From the IMG/VR virus record IMGVR_UViG_3300035698_029289, positions 1-64,000 of that record: a DNA stretch of 64,000 nt. One strand, given 5' to 3'. Within the stretch, counting starts at the first letter, position 1; the number at the start of each line of letters is the position of its first letter. The position numbers and the translations under genes are program-made. Origin of the DNA: a virus. Below the pieces are notes generated by a model. It saw only the letters and a list, made by a program, of their open reading frames with translations, ran no database searches and was not told where the DNA came from. Below, one piece after another: positions 7,131 to 40,639 of the stretch.

Positions 7131-7133
7131 TTG

Positions 7134-7210
7134 GGTATCCGAGCGGATTCGAACCGCCACCATTCCGGGTTCACAGCCCAGTGCTCTAAACCAATTGAGC
7201 TACGGACACC
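7134..7210 (-). tRNA. tRNA-His (GTG)
   Basis: The anticodon loop CTGTGAA has a GGG-containing stem. The acceptor stem is GTGTCCG/CGGATAC, with the extra 5' G opposite C73 that is typical of tRNA-His. No CCA is encoded. It is the last tRNA of the leftward array. Confidence 0.9.
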
Positions 7211-7219
7211 ATATTGTTG

Positions 7220-7292
7220 TGGAAAGTTCTGGAGTTGAACCAGAATCCCCTGATTTTCAGTCAAGTGCCGTGACCACCTTGGCTAACTTTCC
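7220..7292 (-). tRNA. tRNA-Phe (GAA)
   Basis: The acceptor stem is GGAAAGT/ACTTTCC and the anticodon loop is CTGAAAA. A standard T-arm with TTCAACT is present. No CCA is encoded. Confidence 0.9.
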
Positions 7293-7300
7293 TTATTTTG

Positions 7301-7371
7301 TACCGTTACGGAGAATCGAACTCCGGTTATTGGGATGAAAACCCAACGTCCTGCCACTAGACTATAACGGC
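7301..7371 (-). tRNA. tRNA-Glu (TTC)
   Basis: The anticodon stem TTGGG/CCCAA carries the loop TTTTCAT. The acceptor stem GCCGTTA/TAACGGT ends in a G-U pair. The T-loop is TTCGATT. No CCA is encoded. Confidence 0.88.
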
Positions 7372-7375
7372 TTTG

Positions 7376-7450
7376 CGAGGTCGATGGGATTTGAACCCAC
7401 GGTCTACGGCTTGACAAGCCGGCGCTTTGTCCGGACTAAGCTACGACCTC
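7376..7450 (-). tRNA. tRNA-Asp (GTC)
   Basis: The acceptor stem is GAGGTCG/CGACCTC with discriminator G. The anticodon loop is TTGTCAA, and the first pair of the anticodon stem is mismatched. The T-loop is TTCAAAT. Confidence 0.88.
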
Positions 7451-7455
7451 TAGTG

Positions 7456-7529
7456 TGGACCCGAGGAGATTCGAACTCCTAACCTACTCTGTGCAAAAGA
7501 GTCGCTCTAGCCGTTAGAGCTACGAGCCC
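7456..7529 (-). tRNA. tRNA-Ala (TGC)
   Basis: The anticodon stem ACTCT/AGAGT carries the loop TTTGCAC. The acceptor stem is GGGCTCG/CGGGTCC with A73. No CCA is encoded. Confidence 0.9.
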
Positions 7530-7533
7530 TTGT

Positions 7534-7618
7534 TGGCGGAAGATAGAGGAATTGAACCTCTCTGTCCCGAAGGACACGGTTTTCAAGACCGAGGCGACCC
7601 AGTACGCTTTAATCTTCC
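7534..7618 (-). tRNA. tRNA-Ser (TGA), CCA encoded
   Basis: This is a class II tRNA with the acceptor stem GGAAGAT/ATCTTCC, discriminator G and encoded CCA. The anticodon loop is CTTGAAA. The long variable arm folds as GTCC-TTC-GGGAC. Confidence 0.88.
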
Positions 7619-7623
7619 TTGTG

Positions 7624-7711
7624 CGGAAGAGGCGAGATTTGAACTCGCGTATGGAAAAACCAATTCTCCCTTAGCGGGGGAGCACGGTCAACCGGCGCCG
7701 TTTTCGCTTCC
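7624..7711 (-). tRNA. tRNA-Ser (GCT)
   Basis: This is a class II tRNA with the anticodon stem CTCCC/GGGAG and the loop CCGCTAA. A long variable arm and the T-arm GCGAG/CTCGC are present. The acceptor stem has one mismatch. Its 5' part overlaps the end of the small basic ORF at 7688-7786. Confidence 0.82.
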
Positions 7712-7786
7712 TAATTTTCTTCTTCTTCTTTTAAGCTTCCTTGCCCTTCTTTTGGCCAGGTTCTTTTTTTTCTTCGATTTTGCCAT
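7688..7786 (-). CDS. possible very basic micro-protein between tRNAs (32 aa)
   Basis: The ORF begins MAKSKKKKNLAKRRARKLK and stays Arg/Lys-rich for about 24 residues. Its stop falls inside tRNA-Ser(GCT). The ATG lies four bases after the 3' end of tRNA-Pro, with no ribosome site, just as two neighbouring ORFs begin at tRNA ends. If real, it could bind nucleic acid. The overlap with a tRNA means processing and translation would compete. Confidence 0.35.
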   Translation of the reverse strand: MAKSKKKKNLAKRRARKLKRRRRKLGSENGAG

Positions 7787-7789
7787 TTG

Positions 7790-7861
7790 TCAGGGATGGG
7801 AATTCCGAGATCCCGGCCTCGCGGGCCCAGGCCGCGCGCTCTGCCTCTGAGCTAATCCCTG
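7790..7861 (-). tRNA. tRNA-Pro (TGG), atypical
   Basis: The acceptor stem CAGGGAT/ATCCCTG has the C1-G72 pair typical of bacterial tRNA-Pro, plus A73. The anticodon stem CGCGG/CCGCG carries the loop CCTGGGC, with C instead of the near-universal U33. The T-loop CTCGGAA is also atypical. It may be a divergent or decaying tRNA. Confidence 0.65.
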
Positions 7862-7864
7862 ATA

Positions 7865-8065
7865 TTACTTTGATTTTACCTCATATTCTCCTACATAGTC
7901 AATGTAATCTTCATCCGCGGAAAAGGTGACTCCTTTTACCGGGGCATCTTCGTCTTTTCCGTGACCCGGAATATAGAGATCGACATAATCATACATCCTG
8001 GTAAAACACCACATTCCGACCCACATTAAGATTCCGCTGATAATTCTTTCTATTTTATCTTTCAT
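7865..8065 (-). CDS. small protein with a membrane-like segment, between tRNA-Tyr and tRNA-Pro (66 aa)
   Basis: A hydrophobic N-terminal part (ISGILMWVGMWCFTRMY) is followed by an acidic tail (DEDAPVKGVTFSADEDYID). The ATG lies two bases after the 3' end of tRNA-Tyr and the stop lies three bases before tRNA-Pro. There is no room for a ribosome site, so translation would start on a leaderless RNA made by tRNA processing. The function is unknown. Confidence 0.55.
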   Translation of the reverse strand: MKDKIERIISGILMWVGMWCFTRMYDYVDLYIPGHGKDEDAPVKGVTFSADEDYIDYVGEYEVKSK

Positions 8066-8067
8066 AG

Positions 8068-8152
8068 TGCCGCCTAGAGGTATCGAACCTCTCTAATCTT
8101 CTCAGATTTCGGCTTTACAGGCCGAGTCGCATCCTTAACGATTTACGACGGC
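8068..8152 (-). tRNA. tRNA-Tyr (GTA)
   Basis: This is a class II tRNA with the anticodon stem TCGGC/GCCGA, the loop CTGTAAA and the variable arm AATCTGAGAAGATT. The T-arm AGAGG/CCTCT has TTCGATA. The stop of the upstream ORF directly abuts its 5' end. Confidence 0.9.
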
Positions 8153-8602
8153 TTACCACCAAAGAGCGTGATACCATTTCACAAATAACTTCATTCCTTT
8201 CTCTCTCTGCTTTTCCAGTTTTTTCCATTGTTTGATAGTTGGTGTGTCATCTTGCTTTTTTGCCGCTTCAAACCCTTTTATCATTTGATTTAGTATTTCA
8301 TCCCATTTTTTGTATGCCTTTTTCCATTGTTTTTCTGTCAAATCTGGTTCTCCAAGTGAAGCAGGGCAGCTTCTTTGGTATTTCTTCATACTTCTTAGTG
8401 CATCGGGGATCCAACTGGATAGATAGTAGTCCAAACCCCAAGCGTCGCAGTCAGACCAACCTCTTTTGCCTCGTTGGATAAACCATTTGATCTCCGTCAG
8501 TATCTCTCCTGGTTTTTCTAATACTCTTTCGATTGGCCACCAAATGTTTGCCTCCAACCACTCAAGCTTTGTTTTTGGTTTCCATTCCTCTAATTTTTTC
8601 AT
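8153..8602 (-). CDS. hypothetical phage protein nested between tRNA-Gly and tRNA-Tyr (149 aa)
   Basis: The start ATG shares its A with the CCA end of tRNA-Gly, and the TAA touches the first base of tRNA-Tyr. The protein has a core with RGKRGWSDCDAWGLDYYLSS, a pattern I associate with phage proteins of unknown function. A Lys-rich helical tail (KKWDEILNQMIKGFEAAKK) follows. An upstream in-frame start would run through tRNA-Gly and was rejected. Translation is probably leaderless after tRNA 3' cleavage. Confidence 0.7.
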   Translation of the reverse strand: MKKLEEWKPKTKLEWLEANIWWPIERVLEKPGEILTEIKWFIQRGKRGWSDCDAWGLDYYLSSWIPDALRSMKKYQRSCPASLGEPDLTEKQWKKAYKKWDEILNQMIKGFEAAKKQDDTPTIKQWKKLEKQREKGMKLFVKWYHALWW

Positions 8603-8678
8603 GGTCCGAGTTAGGAGATTCGAACTCCTACTATCTGCTTGGAAAGCAGAGATGCTAGCCATTAAACATTAAACTCGG
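8602..8678 (-). tRNA. tRNA-Gly (TCC), CCA overlaps a start codon
   Basis: The acceptor stem is CCGAGTT/AACTCGG with A73 and an encoded CCA. The anticodon stem TCTGC/GCAGA carries the loop TTTCCAA. The final A of CCA is also the A of the ATG of the next ORF. Confidence 0.88.
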
Positions 8679-8679
8679 T

Positions 8680-8754
8680 TGGTTGCGAAGCTAGGTTTCG
8701 AACCTAGATTACGAAGGCCAGAACCTCGCGTACTACCAGTTATACTACCTCGCA
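8680..8754 (-). tRNA. tRNA-Gln (CTG), CCA encoded
   Basis: The acceptor TGCGAGG/CTTCGCA has the U1-A72 pair typical of tRNA-Gln, then A73 and CCA. The anticodon loop is TTCTGGC. Its first ten bases overlap the end of the upstream HNH gene, whose stop codon lies inside the acceptor and D-arm. Confidence 0.85.
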
Positions 8755-9251
8755 TTATATTTTTTGTTTCTACCAGAAAAGGTTGGTGTTTGGCTATTGC
8801 AGTTTGGGCAAAGCAACCTAAGGTTTTCTAGTCTATTATCGTTTTTAATTCCGTTGATATGGTCTAAAACTAACACTAAAGGTTTCCCTCGCCATTCGGG
8901 TTTAAGCCTACAGTCGGAATTTGCACACTTGTTTTCAAGCAACCCCGCCCTAAAAAGCCTAATTTTGAGACGCCATCGATTACTATAGGTAGAGTTTCTA
9001 ACAAGTATTTCCTCGAGTGGGCGTCCACTGTTAGGGAATTTTCTTCCTTTGTTGCTATTTAGGCCTGTTGGAATGTGCGAATAATCAACTTTGTCTGATT
9101 TAAGCCTTGTTTTTAATGTTCTAATATTCCCACCGATATTATTGAGTTTAAAATGTTGTAGTATAGCAGAAAAAGTTTTGCTTTTAACAACAAGTTTTTC
9201 CAATTCACTTTTTGGAATTTTCCATATTGGACTTCGTTTTCTCCTATTCAT
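8745..9251 (-). CDS. HNH homing endonuclease in the tRNA array
   Basis: This 168-residue protein has a C-terminal HNH motif (LVLDHINGIKNDNRLENLR, then LLCPNCNSQT) and a structural cysteine pair before it. The basic N-terminal half probably binds DNA. The C-terminal end runs ten bases into tRNA-Gln. A promoter and a 12-base inverted repeat lie directly upstream. It is probably a selfish element inserted between two tRNA-Gln genes. Confidence 0.88.
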   Translation of the reverse strand: MNRRKRSPIWKIPKSELEKLVVKSKTFSAILQHFKLNNIGGNIRTLKTRLKSDKVDYSHIPTGLNSNKGRKFPNSGRPLEEILVRNSTYSNRWRLKIRLFRAGLLENKCANSDCRLKPEWRGKPLVLVLDHINGIKNDNRLENLRLLCPNCNSQTPTFSGRNKKYNAR

Positions 9252-9303
9252 ACTAAAATGGTAACATATCTTAATAGACTTGTCAAGAACCTACCATTTT
9301 AGT
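9252..9303. repeat. perfect 12-base inverted repeat around the HNH promoter
   Basis: The arms ACTAAAATGGTA (9252-9263) and TACCATTTTAGT (9292-9303) are separated by 28 bases. One arm covers the -10 box and ends at the HNH start codon. In long tRNA-array transcripts it would fold into a hairpin next to the start. It may also be an operator. Confidence 0.7.
9258..9286 (-). promoter_or_regulatory. promoter of the tRNA-array HNH gene
   Basis: TTGACA (9281-9286), 17 bases, then the weak -10 box TACCAT (9258-9263). The ATG is six bases downstream, so this transcript would be leaderless. Confidence 0.5.
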
Positions 9304-9307
9304 TCTA

Positions 9308-9383
9308 TGGTTGCCAGACTAGGATTTGAACCTAGAATTTGCAACTTCAAGGGCTGCCGTGTTACCGATTACACTACCTGGCA
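9308..9383 (-). tRNA. tRNA-Gln (TTG), CCA encoded, atypical loop
   Basis: The acceptor TGCCAGG/TCTGGCA has U1-A72, A73 and CCA. The anticodon stem GCAGC/GTTGC carries the loop CCTTGAA, with C at position 33 in place of U. The T-arm CTAGG/CCTAG is standard. Confidence 0.78.
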
Positions 9384-9384
9384 T

Positions 9385-9461
9385 TGGCGGCACGAGACAG
9401 GAATCGAACCTGTATTCTCTCGTTTTGGAGACGAGTGCTTTCCCAGTTAAGCTACCCGGCC
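9385..9461 (-). tRNA. tRNA-Trp (CCA), bulged acceptor
   Basis: The anticodon stem CTCGT/ACGAG carries the loop CTCCAAA. The T-arm ACAGG/CCTGT, discriminator G and encoded CCA are present. The acceptor stem pairs fully only if one U on the 3' strand is bulged out. The standard Trp anticodon argues against UGA recoding. Confidence 0.82.
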
Positions 9462-9468
9462 TTATTTG

Positions 9469-9598
9469 TGGGGATAACAGAGTTGTAGCTGCCAGTGTGC
9501 CTCACTATCACTCCCTTGATGTACAATCCAAAATACTTACAACGAAGTGTAAGATTTAACACTCGCACTTCCGGTCTGTTTTAAAGACGCTATCCCCA
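9469..9598 (-). ncRNA. candidate structured RNA A in the tRNA array (about 130 nt)
   Basis: An eight-base closing stem joins 9469-9476 with 9591-9598 (TGGGGATA/TATCCCCA). On the minus strand three arms follow: GTCT/AGAC, GAAGTG/CACTTC and GTTGTA/TACAAC. The ends sit where a tRNA would sit, eight bases before tRNA-Trp. No T-loop or clear anticodon is seen, so I do not call it a tRNA. No ORF fits. Confidence 0.45.
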
Positions 9599-9600
9599 TT

Positions 9601-9620
9601 AAGCGGTCAATTGACTGCTT
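9601..9620. repeat. near-perfect 20-base palindrome between RNAs A and B
   Basis: AAGCGGTC and GACTGCTT surround AATT. The stem is complete with one G-U when read on the plus strand. It could be a processing hairpin or a protein site. Confidence 0.4.
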
Positions 9621-9702
9621 AGTGAGACGAGCAATGGATTTTATGCTAGAAATGGGCCAAGAGACCAAAATCCCTCTGCTCCACCAACCTCCGCCTCACT
9701 AA
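9619..9702 (-). ncRNA. candidate structured RNA B in the tRNA array (about 84 nt)
   Basis: An 11-base end stem pairs 9619-9629 with 9692-9702. It includes a G-U only when read on the minus strand, the sense of the tRNAs; the plus strand would have an A-C mismatch. Inside are AGCA/TGCT and GGATTTT/AAAATCC stems around a large loop. It has no T-loop. It follows tRNA-Asn by about a dozen bases. Confidence 0.45.
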
Positions 9703-9713
9703 ATTGTCAATGT

Positions 9714-9787
9714 TGGCTCCAAGGCTGGGAATCGAACCCAGAACCAGTGATTAACAGTCACGCGTGATACCGTTTCACCACCCTGGA
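9714..9787 (-). tRNA. tRNA-Asn (GTT), CCA encoded
   Basis: The acceptor stem TCCAGGG/CCTTGGA is followed by G73 and CCA. The anticodon loop is CTGTTAA and the T-arm is CTGGG/CCCAG. It is the first tRNA of the leftward array. Confidence 0.9.
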
Positions 9788-23309: not shown

Positions 23310-23318
23310 TGATATAAT
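23310..23318 (+). promoter_or_regulatory. extended -10 promoter before the glycan locus
   Basis: TGATATAAT, preceded by GTG, is a perfect extended -10 box. The same GTGATATAATGA string recurs before the methyltransferase at 41993. It overlaps the first in-frame ATG of the next gene, so the real start must be the later ATG at 23344. Confidence 0.6.
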
Positions 23319-23343
23319 GAAAAAACTTGGGGTTACGAAATTG

Positions 23344-25860
23344 ATGACTAAACAAAATAGCGGGCCCAAAATCGCCCTCAACATGATCTTGTCGGAGAAC
23401 GAACCCATAGACATGGTTAAAAGGGCAATTGATAGCGTTCGACGCTATGTTGATGGAATTTACATAACCGTCACTTATAAAAAGAAAAAGCCTAAAAAAA
23501 CTCCTCTTTTGAAACTCCTTCGTGATTACAAAGTTAAAGTGAGTTTATTCAAGTGGGTTTATGATTTTTCCGAAGCAAGAAATTTCGCCATGGTTCAAGT
23601 TCCTCGGGACTATTTTTATCTTTTTTGGATTGACGCTGATGACGTTGTTCAGGAAGCAGAACATCTTCCTCGGATTGTTCGGGAATCATATTTGATGGAT
23701 GCTTCTGCGGTTTTTTTCGACTATTGGTATAAAGTTGATTTGGATGAGCAAGGGAAGGTGAGAGAAGTGGTTATTGAGCATAAAAGAGAAAGGCTTATCA
23801 AGACTGATGGAACATACAAATGGATCGGCAAGCTTCACGAGACACTTATTCCTCAAAAAAAAGAGAATGTTAAACAGGTTTTCAGGAAGGAATGTATTAT
23901 CGTTCACCTTAATACCGAAGAGCGAGAAAATAAAAATCTTGAGCGCAATATCAAAATTCTCGAAGAGGCTGCTCGGGAAGAAAAACATAAAGATCCCCGG
24001 ACGCTTCTTTATCTTGCAAAAGCCTATTTTGACAAAGGGAAATTAAGGGATGTTAAAAATCGTAAATTATGGTTTGATATGACTAGGGCACTTTTGTATG
24101 AATATATTGAGGGAACAGGCAAGCCAGGGCAAGAAGGTTATCAGGAAGGTTCTGGATGGAATCAAGAAAGGGCAGTCGCTTGGGGTTATCTTTCTGATAT
24201 GCACCGCCTTGAAGGACGATTGAATGCTGCCATTAAAACGATTAACAATGCTATCGTTGAGGACCCAACTTTCCCTAAATATTATTTGGATTTAGCAATG
24301 ACTTGGACTTTAAAACAGAAATGGGAGAAGGCTGAACATTGGTTGAGAGTAGCACTTCATACCCCAATGCCTAAAACTACTCAAATCCTTAATCCCCGAG
24401 ATATGAAAGCGCAGGCGTTAGAGATTGATTACAACATTGCCAGGGCGAAACAAGATTTGAATAGAAGCGTTAAGGCTGCGGAAAAACTGGTAGAAATCTT
24501 GCCCAATGTTAAGGGGATAAGAGAGCGTCTTGAGGAAGCAAAAGTTCTTAAAGCAACCAATCAAGCGGCCCAGTCTGTTATCTATTTGGCAAAGTATCTT
24601 GAGGCATCAAAAGAACCCCAAAAAATTATTCCTCTTATTCAGGCTATCCCTGCGACAATACAAGGAGAAGAAATTATATCTCAAATGAGACATCGATACT
24701 TGCCATCTCGGATTTGGGATAAAGATGAAATTGCCATTTTGTGTGGACCTGGATTTGAGAAGTGGTCTCCGAAGAACATTAAACAAGGCTTGGGTGGATC
24801 TGAATCGGCAGTTATTTACCTTAGTCGAGAACTGAAAAAGCTGGGTTACAAGATTACCGTTTTTGGAGATCCTCAGGGTGATGCGGGAGACTATGGCGGA
24901 GTTCAATTCCGACCATGGCATGAGATTAATATTAAAGATTCTTTTAACATTTTGGTTTTGTGGCGAGCCCTTGGTTTTGCGGACAACAATTTCTCGGCGA
25001 ATCAAACTTATTTATGGATGCACGATGTCCCCAATAATGCTGATTTCATAAAAGAAAGGTTGGCAAAGATTGATAAAATTATTCCTCTGTCTCAGTATCA
25101 TAAATCTCTATTTAGAATGCAGGAAGACGGAGATTTTGTAGAAATTCCCGATGAAAAGTTCTGGGTTTCTACCAATGGTATTGTTCCTGTGAAAATTAAC
25201 AAAAAGTGGAAGCGTGATCTTTATAGGTGTATTTGGACTTCTAGCTATGATCGAGGACTGGTTTATCTTTTAAATATTTGGTCTGATGTGAAAAAGGCAG
25301 TACCAAAGGCGAATCTTCACATTTATTATGGGTGGAATTTATATGACCGCCTTCATGCAGAGAATCCTGCCAGAATAGAGTGGAAAGCAAAAGTTTCCAA
25401 AATGATGCAACAACCAGGAATCGTTCATCATGGAAGGGTTGGACACAAAGAGTTGAATAGGGCTTATGCAGGATCAGCCATTTTTTCATACCCGACTGAT
25501 TTCCAGGAAATAAATTGTATAAGTGCTATGTCTGCACAGGCCTATGGAGCGATTCCAGTTTGCACAAACTATGCAGCTCTGAAAGAAACTGTTCAACATG
25601 GAATTAAGGTGGACGTAGATATTACTACGAAAACAGACCAAAAAGCATACACAAAGGAATTAATTTCTCTTTTGAAGAACACAAAAAAACAGGAAGAAAT
25701 AAGAAAGCCGATGATGGAATGGGCACAAAAATTCTTCCTATGGAAGAATACGGCCGCAAGTTGGAATCGTCAATTCCGGAAGAAAACTAAGTCCATAAAA
25801 GGAAAAAAACTTTTAAGAAAAGGGGGTGAAAACAATGCAGGACACAACAAAAAGGCCTAA
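23344..25860 (+). CDS. bifunctional glycosyltransferase: GT2, TPR-like, GT4-like (838 aa)
   Basis: The N-terminal GT-A domain has LNMILSENEPIDMVKRAID and FWIDADDVV (the DxD motif). A helical TPR-like middle follows (DPRTLLYLAKAYFDKGKL and later pairs). The C-terminal GT-B-like domain has LGGSESAVIYLSRELKKLG and ends in PTDFQEINCISAMSAQAYG, the usual donor-binding Glu region. It probably adds two sugars in sequence. The start is the ATG after the promoter. Confidence 0.85.
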   Translation: MTKQNSGPKIALNMILSENEPIDMVKRAIDSVRRYVDGIYITVTYKKKKPKKTPLLKLLRDYKVKVSLFKWVYDFSEARNFAMVQVPRDYFYLFWIDADDVVQEAEHLPRIVRESYLMDASAVFFDYWYKVDLDEQGKVREVVIEHKRERLIKTDGTYKWIGKLHETLIPQKKENVKQVFRKECIIVHLNTEERENKNLERNIKILEEAAREEKHKDPRTLLYLAKAYFDKGKLRDVKNRKLWFDMTRALLYEYIEGTGKPGQEGYQEGSGWNQERAVAWGYLSDMHRLEGRLNAAIKTINNAIVEDPTFPKYYLDLAMTWTLKQKWEKAEHWLRVALHTPMPKTTQILNPRDMKAQALEIDYNIARAKQDLNRSVKAAEKLVEILPNVKGIRERLEEAKVLKATNQAAQSVIYLAKYLEASKEPQKIIPLIQAIPATIQGEEIISQMRHRYLPSRIWDKDEIAILCGPGFEKWSPKNIKQGLGGSESAVIYLSRELKKLGYKITVFGDPQGDAGDYGGVQFRPWHEINIKDSFNILVLWRALGFADNNFSANQTYLWMHDVPNNADFIKERLAKIDKIIPLSQYHKSLFRMQEDGDFVEIPDEKFWVSTNGIVPVKINKKWKRDLYRCIWTSSYDRGLVYLLNIWSDVKKAVPKANLHIYYGWNLYDRLHAENPARIEWKAKVSKMMQQPGIVHHGRVGHKELNRAYAGSAIFSYPTDFQEINCISAMSAQAYGAIPVCTNYAALKETVQHGIKVDVDITTKTDQKAYTKELISLLKNTKKQEEIRKPMMEWAQKFFLWKNTAASWNRQFRKKTKSIKGKKLLRKGGENNAGHNKKA

Positions 25861-26038
25861 GGGCAAATGTGCTTATTGTGGAAAGGAAATTACCATTGAT
25901 TCTGTTCGGAATGCTAAGGTTATTTATTGTTGTCGTGCTTGTGCTTCCATGGCCCGTTACCAAAAGCGATATGTCGGTCCTAGAAGCGGAAGAGGCGATA
26001 TGCCTACATGGGATAGGAGAAAATTCAAGAGGTCTTAA
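25835..26038 (+). CDS. small zinc-finger protein (67 aa)
   Basis: CAYCGKEI near residues 13-20 and YCCRACASMARY near 33-44 form a four-cysteine site. The start was chosen for the AAGGGGGTGAAAACA site. It overlaps the end of the large transferase gene by 26 bases and abuts the next. A basic tail follows. The role is unknown. Confidence 0.6.
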   Translation: MQDTTKRPKGKCAYCGKEITIDSVRNAKVIYCCRACASMARYQKRYVGPRSGRGDMPTWDRRKFKRS

Positions 26039-26862
26039 TGAAAAAAGTAAAATTGGCTTTCATTTGCGACATGCCGAAAGAACATTTTCTCCACTGGAAT
26101 GATGGTCTTGCTGCTGCTCTTCGCTATTTAGTCAAAAAATACGACTGGGAGGTAAAGATTTACAACTTGCCGTCAATGGAAGCTCCAGAAGTCTCCGAAG
26201 ACTCAGATTTTCACCTTTTTTGGGGAGCACTTGATCAGAAACAGCATCATCATCGTTTTTTCAAGAAACAGGGATTGTGTTTCGGTGGTGGTCCCACTTA
26301 TCACCAGAACGCCAACAATTTTGACATTATATTTGCTGAAAGCAGGGTTGATTTGGAGGAACTCAAGAAATCGGGGGTGAAAACAATGCAGGCTTTTGGG
26401 ACTAATACTAAACTCTTTCGGCCAATTCCTGAACAACCTAAGATTTGGGATTTTATTTATGCCGCAGCCTTTGCCAAGTGGAAACAACACGATGTATTTG
26501 TTCAACAGATTAAAGACAAGAAAGCATTGGCCGTAGGATACATGCAACCAGGAGGATGGGAAAAAGTATGTTATGAAATTTGCTTGAAGAATGGAGTGAT
26601 GGTAATGCCATGGGTTCCTTATAGTGTCATGCCGTGGCTTTACAACGCCTCTAGGGCGTGTTTAATAACCGCTGACACTACTGGAGGATGTCAGAGACAA
26701 GTTCTTGAAGCAAAGGCCTGTGGTATCCCTGTTTCAATAGTTTCCAGTTCGCCAAAACTTGAAGAACTTGCTGATTTAACAAGAAAGGAAATTCTGAGGG
26801 ATTGGAGCGAAAAGGCTTATGGGGAAAAGTTGAAAAAGGGGATAGAAGAGGTTTTAAAATGA
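26038..26862 (+). CDS. GT4-like glycosyltransferase (274 aa)
   Basis: The GT-B C-terminal signature is visible as CLITADTTGGCQRQVLEAK followed by ACGIPVSIV, with MPWLYNAS before it. The N-terminal Rossmann part is short. It likely uses a nucleotide sugar in the cytoplasm. It overlaps the next gene by four bases. Confidence 0.8.
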   Translation: MKKVKLAFICDMPKEHFLHWNDGLAAALRYLVKKYDWEVKIYNLPSMEAPEVSEDSDFHLFWGALDQKQHHHRFFKKQGLCFGGGPTYHQNANNFDIIFAESRVDLEELKKSGVKTMQAFGTNTKLFRPIPEQPKIWDFIYAAAFAKWKQHDVFVQQIKDKKALAVGYMQPGGWEKVCYEICLKNGVMVMPWVPYSVMPWLYNASRACLITADTTGGCQRQVLEAKACGIPVSIVSSSPKLEELADLTRKEILRDWSEKAYGEKLKKGIEEVLK

Positions 26863-27701
26863 AGAAACCAAAGATGATTTTCAATTACGATTATGATTTG
26901 CCTCCTTTTCCGGAGCGCAGAGAGAATAGCGTTCCCTTTTTGCTTCAACAAGCATGTGGAGAATATTTTGATGTATATGAAAGAGGCGAAATCCCACGAG
27001 AAGAAGCAGATGTGATTTTTAACACCTTGCCTCTCCCGCACAACGGGTTTTTAGAAGGGAAAGTGACGATGTATTGGGACACCGTTCCATTAGAGAAAAT
27101 TTGGAAAGAATATTTTGACCGTTCACAGGCAATTTTCTATGTCGTTCCTTCTTATCAGTCATTTTACCCAAGGGACAAGTCCCATCTCCTTTTACCAGCC
27201 ATTAATGAAAATTATCGCTATTTTCCATCCGACTTTGCTTATGATGTTGGTTTCCTCGGGAGTGAAGTAGAGGCATGGAGGATTAATCTGCTTGACGAGT
27301 TAGAAAAACACTTTAAGCTATTGAGGGGAGCGACTGAGATTGGTGTCCCTTCAGCGAAACTTTTATCCAAATGTAGGTTGGTTTTGTCTGTACAGGACTA
27401 CCATGAGAAAAAGGTTGGCATCGAGTATCGGTTGTTTACTTTCGGCAATGTTCGCCCCATTCTTGTTCACTTTAACCTAGACTACAAACACGTCGGTGAA
27501 CCATATGTTCATTATATTCCCTATAGCAATAAAGATGATATTATAGGGCAAATTGATTATTACTTGAAGCGTAAGAAAAAAAGAGAAACGGTTGGAGAGA
27601 ATTTGAAGAAGCGATTGGCTCAACATCATACTTATGAGAAGCGAGCGAAAAAAGTTTATGATGTTTTTTGTAAAATAACAAAGGGGCAATGGAAAAAGTA
27701 A
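26859..27701 (+). CDS. CgeB-like glycosyltransferase (280 aa)
   Basis: KVTMYWDTVPLEKIWKEYF, YVVPSYQSFYPRD and LPAINENYRYFP, then DVGFLGS, follow the CgeB-like GT-B layout. The gene starts at the ATGA overlap with its neighbour. An acceptor cannot be named. A second CgeB-like gene lies at 35289. Confidence 0.75.
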   Translation: MKKPKMIFNYDYDLPPFPERRENSVPFLLQQACGEYFDVYERGEIPREEADVIFNTLPLPHNGFLEGKVTMYWDTVPLEKIWKEYFDRSQAIFYVVPSYQSFYPRDKSHLLLPAINENYRYFPSDFAYDVGFLGSEVEAWRINLLDELEKHFKLLRGATEIGVPSAKLLSKCRLVLSVQDYHEKKVGIEYRLFTFGNVRPILVHFNLDYKHVGEPYVHYIPYSNKDDIIGQIDYYLKRKKKRETVGENLKKRLAQHHTYEKRAKKVYDVFCKITKGQWKK

Positions 27702-28201
27702 AAACACGAATAAAGCCCATAAAAGTTTTGGTTGTTGGTTCTTCTGGCAGGAGAGGCAGAAAAGTAATGAAATTTCTCAAAGACAGAGGGTTTCTTGTTT
27801 TCGGTGCTGACAGAATTGCTCAAGAAGAGGACATAAAAGGAACAACAAGGTTTTTCAAGTTGAATCTACGACATCGGGATAGCATTTGGTTGATGTTTAA
27901 TGTTGTTAAGCCGCATGCATTGGTTTATTGTGCCATCGCTAGGGGGAATAGGGGAAACTATGGGACTTTTTTTAGCGTTTTATCCATGGCAATTAAATTT
28001 GGGATAAAAAAGGTGATGGTAATTGTTACGAAACCCCCAATTCACAAAAAACCTAAAGACTTGTTGGAAATAGAAGAGCTTGCTATTGTCTCGGCGACTC
28101 AGCTATTGGCGAAGAAACATGATTTTAAACATGATGTTGTTACTCAAGGGGATAATTTATTGAAAAAAATCAAGAGATTTTTGAAAGAAAGGAGTTTGTG
28201 A
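27689..28201 (+). CDS. truncated SDR/epimerase-like protein (170 aa)
   Basis: VLVVGSSGRRGRKVMKFLK is a Rossmann NAD loop, and VKPHALVYCAIARGNRGNY recalls extended SDR proteins. It ends at about half the usual length, and no catalytic YxxxK is visible. It may be a degenerate epimerase or a NAD-binding subunit of another enzyme. It overlaps the previous gene by 13 bases. Confidence 0.65.
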   Translation: MEKVKTRIKPIKVLVVGSSGRRGRKVMKFLKDRGFLVFGADRIAQEEDIKGTTRFFKLNLRHRDSIWLMFNVVKPHALVYCAIARGNRGNYGTFFSVLSMAIKFGIKKVMVIVTKPPIHKKPKDLLEIEELAIVSATQLLAKKHDFKHDVVTQGDNLLKKIKRFLKERSL

Positions 28202-28205
28202 AAGA

Positions 28206-28838
28206 ATGAAACGTATTTCTGTTGTGCTTCTAGCTTGCATTTTTAGCGAGAAATTACTCCGTTTAACCGAGGATTGCCTGCTTTCGCTAGAAAACCAATA
28301 TGATGAGCTTATTTTTGTCGATAATGCCAGTCATATGTTAAAAGAAAAATGGCGGAATATGGCGGATGTTTACATCAGAAATAATAAGAACCTTGGTTTT
28401 TCATTAGCCTACAATCAAGGATTCAAATTGACAACAGGAGACTATATTTGTGTTGTGACGAATGACACAAGGATTGAAAAGGGCAAGTTAAAAGATTTAA
28501 CATCCTTGGCAGATAAGGGTTATGTTTTCCCAACATTTACCAACAAGGATAAACCCGATTGGGATGGAGCATTTTACATGTTTTCAAGAAAGACAATGGA
28601 AAAGAATGGAATTTACGACCCGATTATGCGAAATTATTTCAGCGATTTGGATTTATTCTATCGGGCAAAGAAAAAAGGATTGGCTTTGACAAAAACCGAT
28701 AAGGTTGTAGTTTTCCACCATGAAGAGCAAACCTATAGGCCATTGGGGACAAGGGACTTTGTTTACGATGAAGACCACCGGAAGTTTGTTAAAAAACACA
28801 AAATTGATCCTTTGGTAGATTATTATAATTTTATATAA
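28206..28838 (+). CDS. GT2 glycosyltransferase (210 aa)
   Basis: LIFVDNASHMLKEKW, NNKNLGFSLAYNQGFKLTTG, then DYICVVTNDTRIEKG is the classic GT2 (rhamnosyl/galactosyl-type) order. GAFYMFSRKTMEKNGIYDP follows as the acceptor region. It is short but complete for this class. It abuts the next gene. Confidence 0.85.
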   Translation: MKRISVVLLACIFSEKLLRLTEDCLLSLENQYDELIFVDNASHMLKEKWRNMADVYIRNNKNLGFSLAYNQGFKLTTGDYICVVTNDTRIEKGKLKDLTSLADKGYVFPTFTNKDKPDWDGAFYMFSRKTMEKNGIYDPIMRNYFSDLDLFYRAKKKGLALTKTDKVVVFHHEEQTYRPLGTRDFVYDEDHRKFVKKHKIDPLVDYYNFI

Positions 28839-29533
28839 TGATGAACAAGACTAAGAAAAAGATTACCGCTGTAGTCTTACATTACTATTCACAAAGAACA
28901 AAGAATGTTGAAAAAATTATTAATGCTTTGCAGTTAGGAATATTAGCTCCAGACAAAATAATTCTCTTCAATAACAACAAAGACGTTCAATATCCGAAAA
29001 CCAAGGGAGTAAGCGTCATTAATAGTGACACCAATTATGGAGGTCGGGGGCGTTACCCCATTGCTTTACTTGAACCCAGTGATTATTATTTTTTCATCGA
29101 TGACGATATGTCTCCCAGTAAAAATACCTTGAAGAACTTTATGAAATATGCAGAAGAAGGTTGTTGCCTTGGCTACATAGGAAAAGTTATTACTGAAAAC
29201 GAAGATTATATGAGTGCTAAAGCGTTTTTTGGTGATGAAATGTCGAAAGTTACGGACGTAGATCTTTTAGTAGGCAATGGTAGTATTTTTGTGTCTTTCA
29301 CTGCTCTTTTTAAAATGTTTGAAACGGAAAAAGGGTTATTAAAAGAAGGTTTTATTTTCGGTAGAGAAGAAGACATTATTTTAAGCATGAGCAATGATCC
29401 GAAAGTGATTCCCGCAAAATACGATGAAGACCTTATCAAGTTGCCAGAGGAGGGTGTTGGGTATTGGAGAGACCCTAGCCATATTAATTTGAGAGACGAG
29501 ATGGTAAGGAGGCTTTATAGGAGGGCTAAATGA
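28838..29533 (+). CDS. GT2-like glycosyltransferase (231 aa)
   Basis: ITAVVLHYYSQRTKNVEKI starts the GT-A fold, YYFFIDDDMSPSK is the DxD motif, and FIFGREEDIILSMS fits the acceptor/base segment with its ED pair. It is part of a run of overlapping transferase genes. Confidence 0.78.
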   Translation: MMNKTKKKITAVVLHYYSQRTKNVEKIINALQLGILAPDKIILFNNNKDVQYPKTKGVSVINSDTNYGGRGRYPIALLEPSDYYFFIDDDMSPSKNTLKNFMKYAEEGCCLGYIGKVITENEDYMSAKAFFGDEMSKVTDVDLLVGNGSIFVSFTALFKMFETEKGLLKEGFIFGREEDIILSMSNDPKVIPAKYDEDLIKLPEEGVGYWRDPSHINLRDEMVRRLYRRAK

Positions 29534-29913
29534 TTATTGGCTATGCCTATCTTGTGGGAGATGTCCTTCATTTTGGGCACATTCAACATTTGAAAAATTG
29601 TAAAGCATTATGTGACAAATTGATTGTAGGCGTGTTGACTGATGGGGCCTGCATGGAAAAGAAACAAAAGCCAATAATTCTTTTTAAGGAAAGAATGGAA
29701 TTAGTAACTGAATTAAAGAGCGTTGACTCGGTTGTTACACAAGAAAAATATTCGCCTATAGAAAACCTTCAAGCAATTCAACCGGACATTTTTTTTGAGA
29801 GCACAAGCCATAAGCCTCCAGTAGAGAATCCTTGGGGAAGAACTATCGTTATGCCTTATTTTCCTGAACAATCAAGTAGTAAAATAAAGGAGAAAATTCG
29901 TGGCAAGTCGTAA
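29530..29913 (+). CDS. cytidylyltransferase-family nucleotidyltransferase (127 aa)
   Basis: GDVLHFGHIQHLKNCKAL (residues 10-27) carries the HxGH motif, and SSSKIK (115-120) matches the second nucleotide-binding motif of TagD/phosphocholine cytidylyltransferases. It probably activates glycerol-, choline- or ethanolamine-phosphate, or a sugar phosphate, with CTP. A LicD gene, which would use such a CDP-alcohol, lies two genes downstream. The alcohol is unknown. Confidence 0.85.
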   Translation: MIIGYAYLVGDVLHFGHIQHLKNCKALCDKLIVGVLTDGACMEKKQKPIILFKERMELVTELKSVDSVVTQEKYSPIENLQAIQPDIFFESTSHKPPVENPWGRTIVMPYFPEQSSSKIKEKIRGKS

Positions 29914-30274
29914 ATCATCAGCTTTGAAAAGTTTGATTTGGCGAATAATAGGCGTGCTCATTCTTGGAGCTGTTACATATTTTTTCACTAGGAAGTGGGT
30001 TGTTACTGGGTTGATTGCTTTTTGGCACAATTTTTCTTTTATTTGGATATTTTATGCTCATGAAAGATTTTGGCTTTGGTTTAAAAAGCCCAATCATCCG
30101 ATTAAAGCAATTACTTATGAAATCATTTTAGGCATGGGAATAGGAGGCTTAATTGTCTATCTTTTTACTGGTCAATGGTCAAAAGTAACCAGAATTACTG
30201 GAACCTACACAGCAATAAAGCTTATAATGTATTATATTAATGAGAAAGTTTGGAGTAAAATAGAAAAGAGGTAA
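29900..30274 (+). CDS. DUF2061-like membrane protein (124 aa)
   Basis: KSLIWRIIGVLILGAVTYF and WVVTGLIAFWHNFSFIWIF, then YAHERFW, match my memory of the DUF2061 membrane domain. About four membrane segments are visible. The start is a GTG that overlaps the preceding gene by 14 bases. It may help move or flip a lipid-linked intermediate, which is inference from the location. Confidence 0.75.
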   Translation: MASRKSSALKSLIWRIIGVLILGAVTYFFTRKWVVTGLIAFWHNFSFIWIFYAHERFWLWFKKPNHPIKAITYEIILGMGIGGLIVYLFTGQWSKVTRITGTYTAIKLIMYYINEKVWSKIEKR

Positions 30275-30277
30275 AAA

Positions 30278-30781
30278 ATGGCTAGAAAAATGCCGTTCGA
30301 AAATAAAGAAAAAGCAGATAAGTTTTTAGAAATCTGGGATGATATTTGTAATGAATTAGGTATTCGACGTTCATTAATTTATGGGACTGCTTTGGGGTTT
30401 TATCGTGAAGGTGGTTATATCAAAGGTGACAGCGATATTGACGTTAGGGTTTTTTGCAAAAGAGATAAATGGGATAAAATGGTAGCGAAATTACACGAAA
30501 AGGGTGTTACTCAAACTCTTCCACATGGGTTTGGTTTCTATAAAGATGCTGTTCTCATGTGTATTGAAAGATGTGAAAGAGTTGGCGTAGTAACTTATCA
30601 GGACGGTTGGGAGATTACATGCTTGCCTTATTATGAATTTGAGACTATTGAATATAATGGCAGGAAATATAATATTCCACATCCGATTGAAAAATATCTT
30701 GAGCAAAGATATGGAGCAGACTGGAGGACACCTAAACCAGGAGCAAAGGCTCAACCTGGTGTTGGTATTCGCATAAAATAA
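30278..30781 (+). CDS. LicD-family phosphotransferase (167 aa)
   Basis: SLIYGTALGFYREGGYIKG followed by DSDIDVRV (residues 51-58) is the LicD/fukutin nucleotidyltransferase-fold signature with its metal-binding Asps. LicD proteins transfer phosphocholine or related groups to glycans. With the cytidylyltransferase upstream it makes a compact phospho-modification pair. Confidence 0.85.
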   Translation: MARKMPFENKEKADKFLEIWDDICNELGIRRSLIYGTALGFYREGGYIKGDSDIDVRVFCKRDKWDKMVAKLHEKGVTQTLPHGFGFYKDAVLMCIERCERVGVVTYQDGWEITCLPYYEFETIEYNGRKYNIPHPIEKYLEQRYGADWRTPKPGAKAQPGVGIRIK

Positions 30782-30790
30782 AGGAGATAT

Positions 30791-31738
30791 ATGAAAAAAG
30801 TTTTAGTCAGTGGAAGTGGCGGTTTTATAGGCCACCATCTATGTAGATTTTTAAAGAAAAGGGGATATTGGGTTCGTGGTGCAGATTTAGTTCACTCTCC
30901 ATTCCTTAAAGTTGATGAAATTGATGAGTTTTTGATACTAGACTTGCGTATTGGCGAAAATTGCCTCAAAGCAACAGAGGGAATCGATGAAGTTTATGCT
31001 TTAGCTGCTATGAATGGGAGTATTGAGTACACTTCAAAGGTAAAAGCAGAAATTGTTCACGATAATGTCCTCATTAACACCAATACGGCTCAGGCATGTG
31101 TAGATAATGGAGTAAAACGGCTATTTTTCTCTTCTTCAGCCTGTGTTTACCCAATTAATAAGCAAGATACAGATGAAGTGATCGCTTTAAGGGAAGAAGA
31201 CGCCTATCCGGCCATGCCTGACAGCGAATATGGGTGGGAAAAGCTATTTTCTGAGAGAATGTACAAGTCCTTTGAAGAAGATTGCGGATTAGAGGTAAGA
31301 ATTGCGAGATTTTTCAACATTTATGGCCCAGAAGGGCATTATGATGAGTTATTGGCCAAGGCCCCAACAGCAATTTCAAGAAAAGTAGCCTTAACAAAGG
31401 ATGGAAAAGTAAAGATTTGGGGAGATGGGGAGCAAAAGCGTTCATTTACCTACATTGATGACTGTCTGGAGGCAATATACAAGCTAACGCAGTCAAATAT
31501 CAATACCCCAACGAATATCGGGACCACAGACCTTCTCACGATAAACGAATTGGCCTATTTGATAGGAAAAATCGCTGGTAAAAAGATTAAACTCGTTCAT
31601 CAATTAGATAAAGCACAGGGAGTAAGAACAAGACAATCCGATCAATCAAAAATAGAGAGATTACTTGGATGGAAGAGGAAAGTTAAGCTAAAAGAGGGTC
31701 TTAAAAATACTTATGACTGGGTGAAAGGGGAACTATGA
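30791..31738 (+). CDS. GDP-mannose 3,5-epimerase-like SDR (315 aa)
   Basis: The NAD loop GSGGFIGHH is at residues 8-16 and SSSACVYP at 114-121. EEDAYPAMPDSEYGWEKL contains the catalytic YGWEK (147-151). The SSACVYP/DAYP/YGWEK set resembles GDP-mannose 3,5-epimerases. GDGEQKRSFTYIDD is also kept. A sister epimerase gene is at 6102. A GGAG ribosome site is present. Confidence 0.82.
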   Translation: MKKVLVSGSGGFIGHHLCRFLKKRGYWVRGADLVHSPFLKVDEIDEFLILDLRIGENCLKATEGIDEVYALAAMNGSIEYTSKVKAEIVHDNVLINTNTAQACVDNGVKRLFFSSSACVYPINKQDTDEVIALREEDAYPAMPDSEYGWEKLFSERMYKSFEEDCGLEVRIARFFNIYGPEGHYDELLAKAPTAISRKVALTKDGKVKIWGDGEQKRSFTYIDDCLEAIYKLTQSNINTPTNIGTTDLLTINELAYLIGKIAGKKIKLVHQLDKAQGVRTRQSDQSKIERLLGWKRKVKLKEGLKNTYDWVKGEL

Positions 31739-32583
31739 ACAATAATGTCCAAGCACTAATCTTTTCGTATAATCGTCCAATGCAATTGGATCTTTTGTTG
31801 AGCAGTATTAAAAGGAATATTACTGGCTTTGATAAAATTTTCGTTACCTTCAATTATTCCAATGACAAATTTCTTAAAGGCTATGAGATGTTGATGAAAA
31901 AGGGGTTGGCAGATGAATGGCACTGTGATAAAGACTTTGCCTACACTCCTGGCTTTAAGGACTATCTCGTGGGGTTAATGGGTACTAAATATCAACACAC
32001 TTGTATCTTCTCTGATGACGATATTGTTTTTGGAAAGGCTTCCATGGATGATGTTGTTTCCCTCATAACGAATGATGTTATTTCTTTCCCCTTGAGATCT
32101 GGCCTTAATGCCAATTACAGTTTTTATGGTGGAACCACTATAATCGAAAATCCATGGGGAGAATATGAGGATTTGGGAAAGTTCATTAAATGGGATTGGA
32201 CAACATATAATCCAAAGCGTTGCAATGGTTATCCTATAGCATTTGGAGATGGTGGTGTTTACAGGACTCAAGTAATAAGAAATTTACTGAAAAGGGTTGA
32301 GGGACAATCACCTAATGAGATAGAAAGACATTTGAATGAAAAAGAATCGAGGAAGGTCATCACTCAACACAATCTGGCTGCATACAAACATAGCGTATTA
32401 GTAAGCACACCGGTTAATTTGGTGCAAACATTTTCTCCTTTGTTTCATGGTGAAAAATTCAGTTACCCTGTTGGAGAATTAAATGACGCATATTTAAAAG
32501 GATATATTATTGATTATGATAAAATAGATTTTAGTAATATTAAAGGAACTCATCAAGAGTTAAAATTACCATTAAGGAGGTAA
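31735..32583 (+). CDS. GT-A-like glycosyltransferase (282 aa)
   Basis: VQALIFSYNRPMQLDLLLS starts a GT-A fold and TCIFSDDDIVFGKAS is the DxD motif. GYPIAFGDGGVYRTQVIRN is the probable acceptor loop. It overlaps the previous stop (ATGA). The exact GT family is not certain. Confidence 0.72.
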   Translation: MNNNVQALIFSYNRPMQLDLLLSSIKRNITGFDKIFVTFNYSNDKFLKGYEMLMKKGLADEWHCDKDFAYTPGFKDYLVGLMGTKYQHTCIFSDDDIVFGKASMDDVVSLITNDVISFPLRSGLNANYSFYGGTTIIENPWGEYEDLGKFIKWDWTTYNPKRCNGYPIAFGDGGVYRTQVIRNLLKRVEGQSPNEIERHLNEKESRKVITQHNLAAYKHSVLVSTPVNLVQTFSPLFHGEKFSYPVGELNDAYLKGYIIDYDKIDFSNIKGTHQELKLPLRR

Positions 32584-32586
32584 AAT

Positions 32587-33177
32587 ATGGCTTGTCCATC
32601 AATAAGAGCATTTGATTTTTTACTTAAAAAGAAAAAGGATTTAGTTGGTGTAGAAGTAGGAGTATTAGCAGGAAGTCATGCTCTTAAAATGTTACAATTT
32701 CTTGATATAAAAACTCTTTATTTAGTTGATCCTTATTTTAAATATAAGTCTAAATATAAGTCTGGAGAATTTGAATGGGATAATAGAAAATGGGAAGCAA
32801 TTGCAAAAGAAAAGCTACAAAAATATAAAGATAAAATAAAATGGATTAAAACTACATCAGTTAAAGCAGTTGTTGAGTTTAAAGATGAAAGTTTAGATTT
32901 TGCTTACATAGATGCCAATCATGAATATAAATTTACATTAGAAGATACTGAATTATGGACACCAAAAGTAAAACAGGGTGGAATCGTAGGTGGACACGAT
33001 CATGTACCTAATCATCCTGGAGTAGCAAAAGCTGTAAAAGAATATTGTGATAAAAATAAAATTGAATATAAAACTAAATATTTTATAAATAAAAAAGTTA
33101 ATATTGATTGGGCATTTAAAAAAGGTGGCAAGTTAGGAGTTTGGGAAATTCCTAAAAGTAATATACCTGAACCATGA
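32587..33177 (+). CDS. Methyltransf_24-type SAM methyltransferase (196 aa)
   Basis: GVEVGVLAGSHALKML (SAM loop), YLVDPYFKYK and LDFAYIDANHEYKFTLED match this sugar methyltransferase type, and GGIVGGHDHV fits the metal/substrate region. A strong AAGGAGGT site precedes it. Its codons are much more A/T-ending than its neighbours, suggesting separate acquisition. Confidence 0.82.
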   Translation: MACPSIRAFDFLLKKKKDLVGVEVGVLAGSHALKMLQFLDIKTLYLVDPYFKYKSKYKSGEFEWDNRKWEAIAKEKLQKYKDKIKWIKTTSVKAVVEFKDESLDFAYIDANHEYKFTLEDTELWTPKVKQGGIVGGHDHVPNHPGVAKAVKEYCDKNKIEYKTKYFINKKVNIDWAFKKGGKLGVWEIPKSNIPEP

Positions 33178-34031
33178 ACAAACTCTGCATAGCAATTAGA
33201 AGCCTTAACCGACCAGAATATTTAAAACAATGTTTGGAGTCTTTGGAAGCTAATACCTATTTAAGCGGTGTAGATTTCCATTTCTTTCAAGATGGAGCAG
33301 TTAACCAATTTTCTGGCATTAGGCATGCCACTGATGAAGACATTAAAGCTTCATTAAAAGTCTTTCTGGATTCTAAATTACCTAATAAAACAATCTTTAT
33401 TAGTTCGTCTAATGTTGGTCCAATTATCAGGAATAAACTCCAATTAGGACATGTGTTCCCGCGATACGAATATGGAGTGTTTATTGATAATGACCTCATT
33501 TTCAACAAGTATTACATCAAGACATTAAAGGTTTTGTTCGAACAGTTCAAAAATAGCGATGCTGGCTCGATTCAAACATCTTTTAGGCATCATGAAAATA
33601 GTCTTCAATCTTTTGAAGAGGCTGAAAGGCTTCAGGATAAAGTAGCTTATGGATTTTCTCATAGGTGGGAGATTGGTTTATGGAGGGAGAGCTGGGAAAA
33701 AATCAAACCCCAAATGGCACCATATTTCGAAATGACTGAGAAATGTGATTTCAAAGAGCTTTTATACAATCATGATATTTATGAAGATATTCGGGTCAAA
33801 CTACGGGAGATTTATGGGCAGTCAGGGAATGTCACAACAGAAGATTACGCTTTGGAAAGATCGGTAGAAAAAGCAGGATATAAGGGGTTGCACACTTTAA
33901 CATTACGGCACAAAACAATTGGAGAAAAAGGAATGTATAGTTTTAGGTCAACTCGATTTAAGGATGGAAATTATGCTGGAATCGAATTGTACAATGTCGG
34001 CAATGTGGAGGAATATGAGGTTCATAAATAA
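33174..34031 (+). CDS. GT2-like glycosyltransferase (285 aa)
   Basis: LCIAIRSLNRPEYLKQCLE starts the GT-A fold, YEYGVFIDNDLIFNKYY is the DxD region, and GNVTTEDYALERSVEKAGY holds the ED acceptor motif. It ends ELYNVGNVEEYEVHK. The same start and end words recur at 34703-34789 as the scar of a deleted paralogue. Confidence 0.78.
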   Translation: MNKLCIAIRSLNRPEYLKQCLESLEANTYLSGVDFHFFQDGAVNQFSGIRHATDEDIKASLKVFLDSKLPNKTIFISSSNVGPIIRNKLQLGHVFPRYEYGVFIDNDLIFNKYYIKTLKVLFEQFKNSDAGSIQTSFRHHENSLQSFEEAERLQDKVAYGFSHRWEIGLWRESWEKIKPQMAPYFEMTEKCDFKELLYNHDIYEDIRVKLREIYGQSGNVTTEDYALERSVEKAGYKGLHTLTLRHKTIGEKGMYSFRSTRFKDGNYAGIELYNVGNVEEYEVHK

Positions 34032-34728
34032 ATTGTACGATAAACACAAGGGGCAAGCAATATGGATTTGTGGAAGCGGGCCAACTCTTGATGATTACCC
34101 TGATAACTTTCTTGATGACAAGATAGGGATTACCCTTCACCTAGCGACGCTCAAATACCCCCAGGCGAGCTATCGTTACTTCAATGAGTATGATAGGCTA
34201 GAATATCTTATTAAACAGGATCCTACGGTCTTAGAGAGGAAAAACATTTTTGGTTGGCCGTTTTATAGGAGAACGGAAGAAGAGTCGGCCAGATTAACAG
34301 AGAAAGCTACCAAGGCATATTATTTAAAACTGACTCCTTACCCGCCTAATGGCATGGCAAAAGACATTTTTACTGAAGTTGGAGTAAGCGCCATGAAGAA
34401 GCAAGTAAAGGATGCCAAGAGAGCCAGAGTAATTAAATTCGGAGGATATGGTACTTGTGCTCATGGCTGCTTGTATACAGCGATAATGATGGGTGGCAAC
34501 CCGATTTTTATGATTGGGTGTGGGTTTAAATCAATAGGCGACAAGGAACACTTTAATGAAGCCAACATTATTGACAAGAAAATGAGACCCAAAATAGCAT
34601 TATTTTCCGACCAGAGCAGAACAAAAAGAATGTTTACAGGAACGAAGGCAATAATTGAAGGCTGCAAGGAGCAAGGGATTAAAATTCACTGGTGCAAAAA
34701 TTATGAACAAACTTGTCGTTTCCATTAG
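34015..34728 (+). CDS. MptE/DUF115-like protein of glycan clusters (237 aa)
   Basis: IWICGSGPTLDDYPDNFLD resembles the nucleotide-binding GxGPSL motif of DUF115/MAF-type proteins, and GYGTCAHGCLYTAIMMGGN with PIFMIGCG fits its later strand. The GGAGG site and the 17-base overlap with the previous gene fix the start at 34015. DUF115 proteins occur in glycosylation islands; their activity is not settled. Confidence 0.65.
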   Translation: MRFINKLYDKHKGQAIWICGSGPTLDDYPDNFLDDKIGITLHLATLKYPQASYRYFNEYDRLEYLIKQDPTVLERKNIFGWPFYRRTEEESARLTEKATKAYYLKLTPYPPNGMAKDIFTEVGVSAMKKQVKDAKRARVIKFGGYGTCAHGCLYTAIMMGGNPIFMIGCGFKSIGDKEHFNEANIIDKKMRPKIALFSDQSRTKRMFTGTKAIIEGCKEQGIKIHWCKNYEQTCRFH

Positions 34729-34789
34729 GGGCAAAACTTTATGATGTTGGAAATGTCGAAAAATACCAAATCACCAATTAAGCTGTTTA
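34703..34789 (+). pseudogene. scar of a deleted GT2 paralogue
   Basis: An ATG at 34703 opens MNKLVVSIRG, matching MNKLCIAIRS at the start of the gene at 33174. Only about 30 bases later, in another frame, KLYDVGNVEKYQITN and a stop match that gene's end, ELYNVGNVEEYEVHK. The middle of the paralogue is missing. The next methyltransferase start lies inside the scar. Confidence 0.65.
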
Positions 34790-36149: not shown

Positions 36150-36169
36150 GAAGGGGGGTGAAAAAATCT

Positions 36170-36355: not shown

Positions 36356-36427
36356 TAAAGTACAAATTATTTGCCTATAAACGAATTGTCGTTTAAATCA
36401 TGGGCAGAAAGGAGTGTGAAAAAATAA

Positions 36428-38324: not shown

Positions 38325-40639
<2,315 letters not shown>

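Follow-up and report, generated by a model that had tools for sequence, protein, structure and literature searches.

In mitochondrial genomes, according to the tRNA punctuation model that Ojala, Montoya and Attardi are said to have set out in 1981, ORFs abut tRNAs whose excision separates the messages. A protamine-like ORF of the E. coli tyrT operon is likewise said to have been described by Altman in 1981 and by Bosl and Kersten in 1991. In bacteria and their viruses, leaderless mRNAs are known from lambda cI and from mycobacteria (PMC4633059). The open-access literature describes organellar punctuation and bacterial or phage leaderless starts separately and not in combination, and we found in it no description of tRNA punctuation in phages or of leaderless genes behind phage tRNAs, an absence that carries little weight.

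The stretch of DNA analysed here, hereafter the window, comprises positions 1-64,000 of the 73,979-base IMG/VR virus IMGVR_UViG_3300035698_029289. In its tRNA cluster, protein-coding ORFs begin on or immediately behind the last bases of tRNAs, and we propose, with a probability of roughly 0.6, that these are tRNA-punctuated protein genes and that tRNA cleavage would free near-leaderless mRNAs. Elsewhere in the window, a 651-aa collagen-like protein with GDTG and GADSTV repeats is encoded at 38684-40639, and a long run of ORFs at 23317-37658 resembles glycosyltransferases, nucleotide-sugar epimerases and methyltransferases in an amount unusual for a phage. Probable HNH-type endonuclease ORFs are dispersed among structural genes (at 21962, 46913, 48217, 51047, 53126 and 56463), and a 655-aa ORF (54465-56432) looks like a metallophosphoesterase that carries an intein-like insertion (GDHDCLDEKTEVYTKRGW ... 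FTGNS).

Junctions in the tRNA cluster

The tRNAs and ORFs of the cluster lie on a single strand without spacers, in the order tRNA-Gln(ttg), HNH ORF, tRNA-Gln(ctg), tRNA-Gly, 149-aa ORF, tRNA-Tyr, 66-aa ORF, tRNA-Pro-like element, 32-aa ORF and tRNA-Ser(GCT), and the HNH ORF has a promoter-like site of its own. The features are as follows.

7133-9787, minus strand: tRNA cluster, 12 tRNAs called by ARAGORN and two read by eye
7624-7711, minus strand: tRNA-Ser(GCT), identified by eye and absent from the ARAGORN calls
7688-7786, minus strand: 32-aa basic ORF, its last 24 nt inside tRNA-Ser(GCT)
7790-7861, minus strand: tRNA-Pro(TGG)-like element with an abnormal 9-nt T loop, read by eye, uncertain
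7865-8065, minus strand: 66-aa ORF, no relatives found
8067-8152, minus strand: tRNA-Tyr(gta), discriminator A8068, ARAGORN
8153-8602, minus strand: 149-aa ORF, conserved phage protein family
8602-8678, minus strand: tRNA-Gly(tcc), ending ...CGGACCA, ARAGORN, Rfam 37.9 bits
8680-8754, minus strand: tRNA-Gln(ctg), ARAGORN; the HNH ORF takes its UAG stop from U8-A9-G10 of this tRNA
8745-9251, minus strand: HNH endonuclease ORF, 168 aa, between both tRNA-Gln genes (phrog_10822, E 1.1e-40)
9252-9286, minus strand: putative leaderless-type promoter of the HNH ORF, TTGACA-17-TACCAT-6-ATG, by sequence pattern

Between tRNA-Trp and tRNA-Asn (9462-9713) lies a 252-nt gap with neither an ORF nor an Rfam match.

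The junction of tRNA-Gly with the 149-aa ORF is an overlap of one base: the tRNA encodes its CCA at 8604-8602, the ATG occupies 8602-8600, and A8602 is both A76 of the CCA and the A of the ATG (...CGGA-CC-ATG). The initial annotation had reported this shared base, and the tRNA end called by ARAGORN bears it out. The same holds for its statement that the 149-aa ORF stops against tRNA-Tyr, since the TAA (8155-8153) directly abuts the first base of that tRNA (8152), and for the start of the 66-aa ORF (8065-7865) two bases past tRNA-Tyr, where CT stands between the discriminator A8068 and the ATG. Counted from the tRNA ends, the offsets of these two starts are -1 and +1, unlike the spacers of phage T5, which are sized for a ribosome-binding site.

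A third such ORF had been described behind a tRNA-Pro, and this junction is weak. The 66-aa ORF stops 3 nt ahead of the tRNA-Pro-like element and the 32-aa ORF does start 3 nt past the element's discriminator, but ARAGORN does not call this tRNA, Rfam gives no match at E<=1, and the predicted fold is no better than that of shuffled sequences (z -0.85). The 32-aa ORF then reads 24 nt into tRNA-Ser(GCT), a tRNA that the earlier reading had missed and that supplies its UGA. The assertion that no ribosome site is possible was slightly overstated, because AGGCGG is present 5′ of the 66-aa ORF, although it lies within the tRNA acceptor stem.

The 149-aa ORF is, judged from its sequence, a gene. An alignment search found its family at 79 viral loci, some of them in genomes of 300-460 kb, with a conserved core QRG.RG[YW]SD.D.W and a C-terminal LWD (LW[DW]), and the N terminus of the window copy is consistent with those of its homologues. 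Many family members encoded away from tRNAs have strong Shine-Dalgarno (SD) sites, in G004 for example AAGGAGGAAAA-ATG, whereas the window copy starts at the end of tRNA-Gly and that of the related phage G002 exactly at tRNA-Thr. A single-sequence search of viral contigs with the 149-aa and 66-aa ORFs returned no relatives; none were found for the 32-aa ORF or for the neighbouring ARPP-1 gene either. The lack of relatives for the 66-aa and 32-aa ORFs, together with the doubtful tRNA-Pro and the termination of the 32-aa ORF within a tRNA, would fit a view in which both short ORFs are untranslated chance frames and the 149-aa ORF alone is a gene. We consider this rather unlikely, as the ORFs occupy the spaces between tRNAs end to end and comparable small ORFs fill such gaps in four other phages (G002, G005, G027 and G028).

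Starts at tRNA ends are not due to chance. Within the window, an ATG-initiated ORF of at least 38 aa starts at -2 to +2 in two of five gaps, against 0.08 expected from dinucleotide shuffles (Poisson P 0.003), and the lineage of the window has 14 ORFs of at least 40 aa at -2 to +12, against 0.67 expected. Pooling five phages, namely the window, two relatives and two phages without its capsid gene, gave starts at -2 to +2 in 26 of 68 inter-tRNA gaps, against 0.56 expected from the same kind of shuffles, a figure that describes these five and not phages at large because they were partly selected for the pattern. The trait is real and limited to some phages, since against this enrichment T5 has no such start in 14 gaps, the tRNA-rich phage G031 has one, and an unbiased sample of phage tRNAs yielded one in 256 at -2 to +4. 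Where a tRNA is followed by CCATG, the ATG opens an ORF of at least 60 aa in 14 of 39 viral cases as compared with 10 of 78 for the other frames (P 0.007); the corresponding values in cellular genomes are 12/64 and 19/128. An artefact common to all tRNAs is ruled out by the unbiased viral sample and by the cellular genomes, neither of which has an excess.

Recurrence in relatives and in phages without the capsid gene of the window

The capsid gene of the window matched 27 loci. The initial annotation had hinged on whether related phages would keep the reading frames along with the tRNAs, and the outcome in two of them, G002 and G005, favours it. G002, with 80% capsid identity to the window, repeats the arrangement: eight ORFs (236, 180, 160, 138, 108, 66, 61 and 39 aa), including an HNH gene and a methyltransferase-like gene (PF13578), start 0-8 nt behind tRNAs. 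The window counterpart of the latter gene, identified by resemblance without alignment, lies in a tRNA-free operon. Two junctions occur in G005, at 0 and +1, while G012 and G027 each show a single one, at +7. For dN/dS or position-wise conservation of junctions, the search turned up no sufficiently close relatives of either the window or phage G028. The tRNA cluster of G002 packs 36 tRNAs and a tmRNA into about 9 kb, the tmRNA (L063 5135-5452) being located between tRNA-Ala and tRNA-Thr.

The arrangement occurs in several phage lineages. A scan of viral contigs for a tRNA T-arm followed by CCATG had G028, G029, G032 and others among the matches listed, and where tested these lack the capsid gene of the window; no isolated relatives of the three were found. 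Thirteen ORFs in G028 and six in G029 lie at -2 to +2 of tRNA ends. In G028 (L386 3147-12792), six small, related Cys-rich proteins (C..C.xRF.C.T) each have a different tRNA ahead of them, and in G029 and G028 a PDDEXK_5 protein (E 4.5e-33) and metallophosphoesterases start 0-7 nt from a tRNA. In other contigs, members of recognisable protein families start on a tRNA CCA: RmlB (TIGR01181, E 3e-142, residue 6 aligning with profile position 1), ThyX (TIGR02170, E 6e-55) and, by family models, a dNMP kinase and an RNase H-like protein. For the RmlB, ThyX and kinase genes the next in-frame ATG is 60-117 nt downstream, beyond conserved sequence.

Some of these ORFs could be selfish cargo, that is, homing-type insertions that arrived with tRNAs or landed beside them, such that the junction reflects only an insertion site. 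HNH and PD-(D/E)XK genes are indeed among them, and homing endonucleases also reside in the tRNA clusters of T4 and T5. As a full explanation this is very unlikely, because much of the set encodes other proteins than endonucleases (ThyX and RmlB, methyltransferases, phosphoesterases, members of the 149-aa family) and an insertion origin leaves translation without a ribosome-binding site unexplained; it could, in any case, be compatible with punctuation.

Translation signals at the junctions

SD sequences of at least 4 nt precede 5 of 32 starts at offsets of up to 8 nt, as compared with 41 of 71 starts farther from a tRNA (P 8e-5), a contrast that is uninformative within G002, where ordinary genes rarely have them (2 of 15). 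When the leader is counted from the discriminator, it is 2 nt long in 18 of 42 junctions; a further 7 have 1 nt and 3 have 3 nt, so that 25 of the 42 have a leader of 1-2 nt.

These distances bear on a simpler account, according to which the clusters are just extremely packed: spacers would have been trimmed until the ATG met the tRNA, initiation would occur independently of SD sequences on the unprocessed transcript, and cutting of the tRNA would be irrelevant or would even lower expression. An uncut message suits stops that lie inside tRNAs, stops crowd against or into the next tRNA even in T5, where starts depend on ribosome-binding sites, and the frequent lack of SD sequences from ordinary G002 genes is also in keeping with it. 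On the other hand, the RNA directly 5′ of each start would be folded into a tRNA acceptor and T arm, leaders peak at 1-2 nt past the discriminator with no even spread, and equally tRNA-rich phages keep gaps of ribosome-binding-site size (mostly 13-25 nt by annotation in T5; mostly 13-30 nt or more in G031). We therefore regard packing alone as unlikely.

Leaderless starts would not be foreign to this phage. Four genes of the window (at 6102, 9251 on the minus strand, 11443 and 40675; an epimerase gene, the HNH gene and two more) are preceded by TTGAC-N15-20-TANNNT-N5-9-ATG, sigma70-type promoters that would place the transcript start at the ATG, against 0.08 expected, and the pattern suggests that the phage uses leaderless starts elsewhere in its genome. 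If similar promoters inside the tRNA genes started RNA at the junction ATGs, leaderless mRNAs would arise without tRNA processing, and one of the four promoters, that of the HNH gene, does lie in the cluster. A suitably spaced TANNNT element is found at 1 of 42 junctions, however, with 1.94 expected, and in view of this lack of enrichment we reject internal promoters as highly improbable.

A proposed model of tRNA-punctuated expression and its relation to known systems

Because these start codons sit at the very ends of tRNAs and have no ribosome-binding site, cutting the tRNA out would make the messenger, and tRNA punctuation is the best available reading of the junctions, a partly supported one. 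We propose that tRNAs and ORFs alternate along one long transcript and that host RNase Z would cut it immediately behind every tRNA discriminator, leaving an RNA that begins C-AUG, CC-AUG or CU-AUG and that would be translated as a near-leaderless mRNA; a nucleotidyltransferase would re-add CCA to the tRNA, and the ribosome would reach the stop before RNase P cuts at the next tRNA. Mitochondrial-type punctuation, as originally suggested for this cluster, is favoured by its recurrence in relatives and in phages that lack the capsid gene of the window, by the absence of SD sequences and by the leaderless-type promoters, and is weakened by the third junction. The simple form of the proposal, that excision releases leaderless mRNAs, needs to be changed in two respects.

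The first concerns the site of cleavage. In tRNA precursors that lack CCA, RNase Z cuts after the discriminator. For tRNAs that encode CCA, such as tRNA-Gly, we assume the same site, since cleavage behind the CCA would cost the AUG its A, and CCA would then need to be re-added. No phage-encoded RNase Z was found in eight records, including that of the window, in which no CCA-adding enzyme was found either, nor was a CCA-adding gene found in the G002 record. Genes of the PolyA_pol family (CCA-adding type) are present in G028 (29657-30028), G029 (75693-76061) and G032 (116334-116711), each of which has several tRNA-abutting ORFs. As a marker of punctuation the enzyme is suggestive only, its association not being robust to genome size (P 0.02 over 50 kb, P 0.43 over 100 kb).

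The second concerns the stops, which are complete and are often supplied by the next tRNA, as UAG at positions 8-10, UAA at 13-15 or UGA at 22-24. Where another tRNA follows closely, 11 of 21 junction ORFs stop inside it, mostly at +10 (U8-A9-G10), +15 or +24, so that cutting out both flanking tRNAs would yield a message lacking its stop codon. If the upstream tRNA is cut, either translation ends before the downstream cut, or tRNA and mRNA are alternative products, or ribosome rescue is needed; the tmRNA in the G002 cluster fits the last of these, which is suggestive only.

On a broader and more tentative view, to which we would give slightly less than even odds, several phage lineages independently evolved mitochondrial-style punctuation: host tRNA 3′ processing would serve as the switch by which a group of phage mRNAs becomes translatable, the precursor would trade its encoded CCA for an AUG, and some phages would supply a CCA-adding enzyme that restores the tRNA. 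If so, phage tRNA arrays would be processing signals that create mRNAs, beyond their role as a decoding supplement, which would explain the protein genes between phage tRNAs and couple expression of the junction genes with CCA addition and with the RNase Z of the host. Punctuation could then evolve outside organelles, and gene finders based on ribosome-binding sites would be predicted to mis-start or miss such genes.

In relation to mitochondria, the cluster is alike in that ORFs abut tRNAs on one strand and start at tRNA 3′ ends or a few bases past them, with few or no bases between and no ribosome-binding site. It differs in belonging to phages, whose genes a bacterial host translates, in start codons that can overlap an encoded CCA, in the use of the arrangement by only some genes of the genome, and in stops that are complete and often inside the next tRNA, whereas mitochondrial ones are finished by poly(A), a type of mRNA 3′ end that the junction ORFs do not show. 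The clusters of T5 and T4 similarly combine tRNAs with small ORFs and homing endonucleases, and in T5 the stops of hegD, hegC and T5.069 overlap tRNAs; the T5 starts, however, lie at least 13 nt past the tRNA, mostly with an SD sequence, and 0 of 13 ORFs start within 8 nt. Since T5 shares the 3′ overlaps while keeping ordinary starts, packing at the 3′ end is a known habit, and what is new is the 5′ junctions only. The 32-aa ORF resembles the tyrT ORF in being very small, basic and presumably part of a tRNA transcript, the latter reportedly being a single case in a chromosomal operon. As in leaderless mRNAs, the AUG would be at or near the 5′ end, SD sequences are mostly missing ahead of the junction starts, and 70S-type initiation is assumed; the 5′ end of those mRNAs is set by the start of transcription, whereas here it would be set by tRNA 3′ processing.
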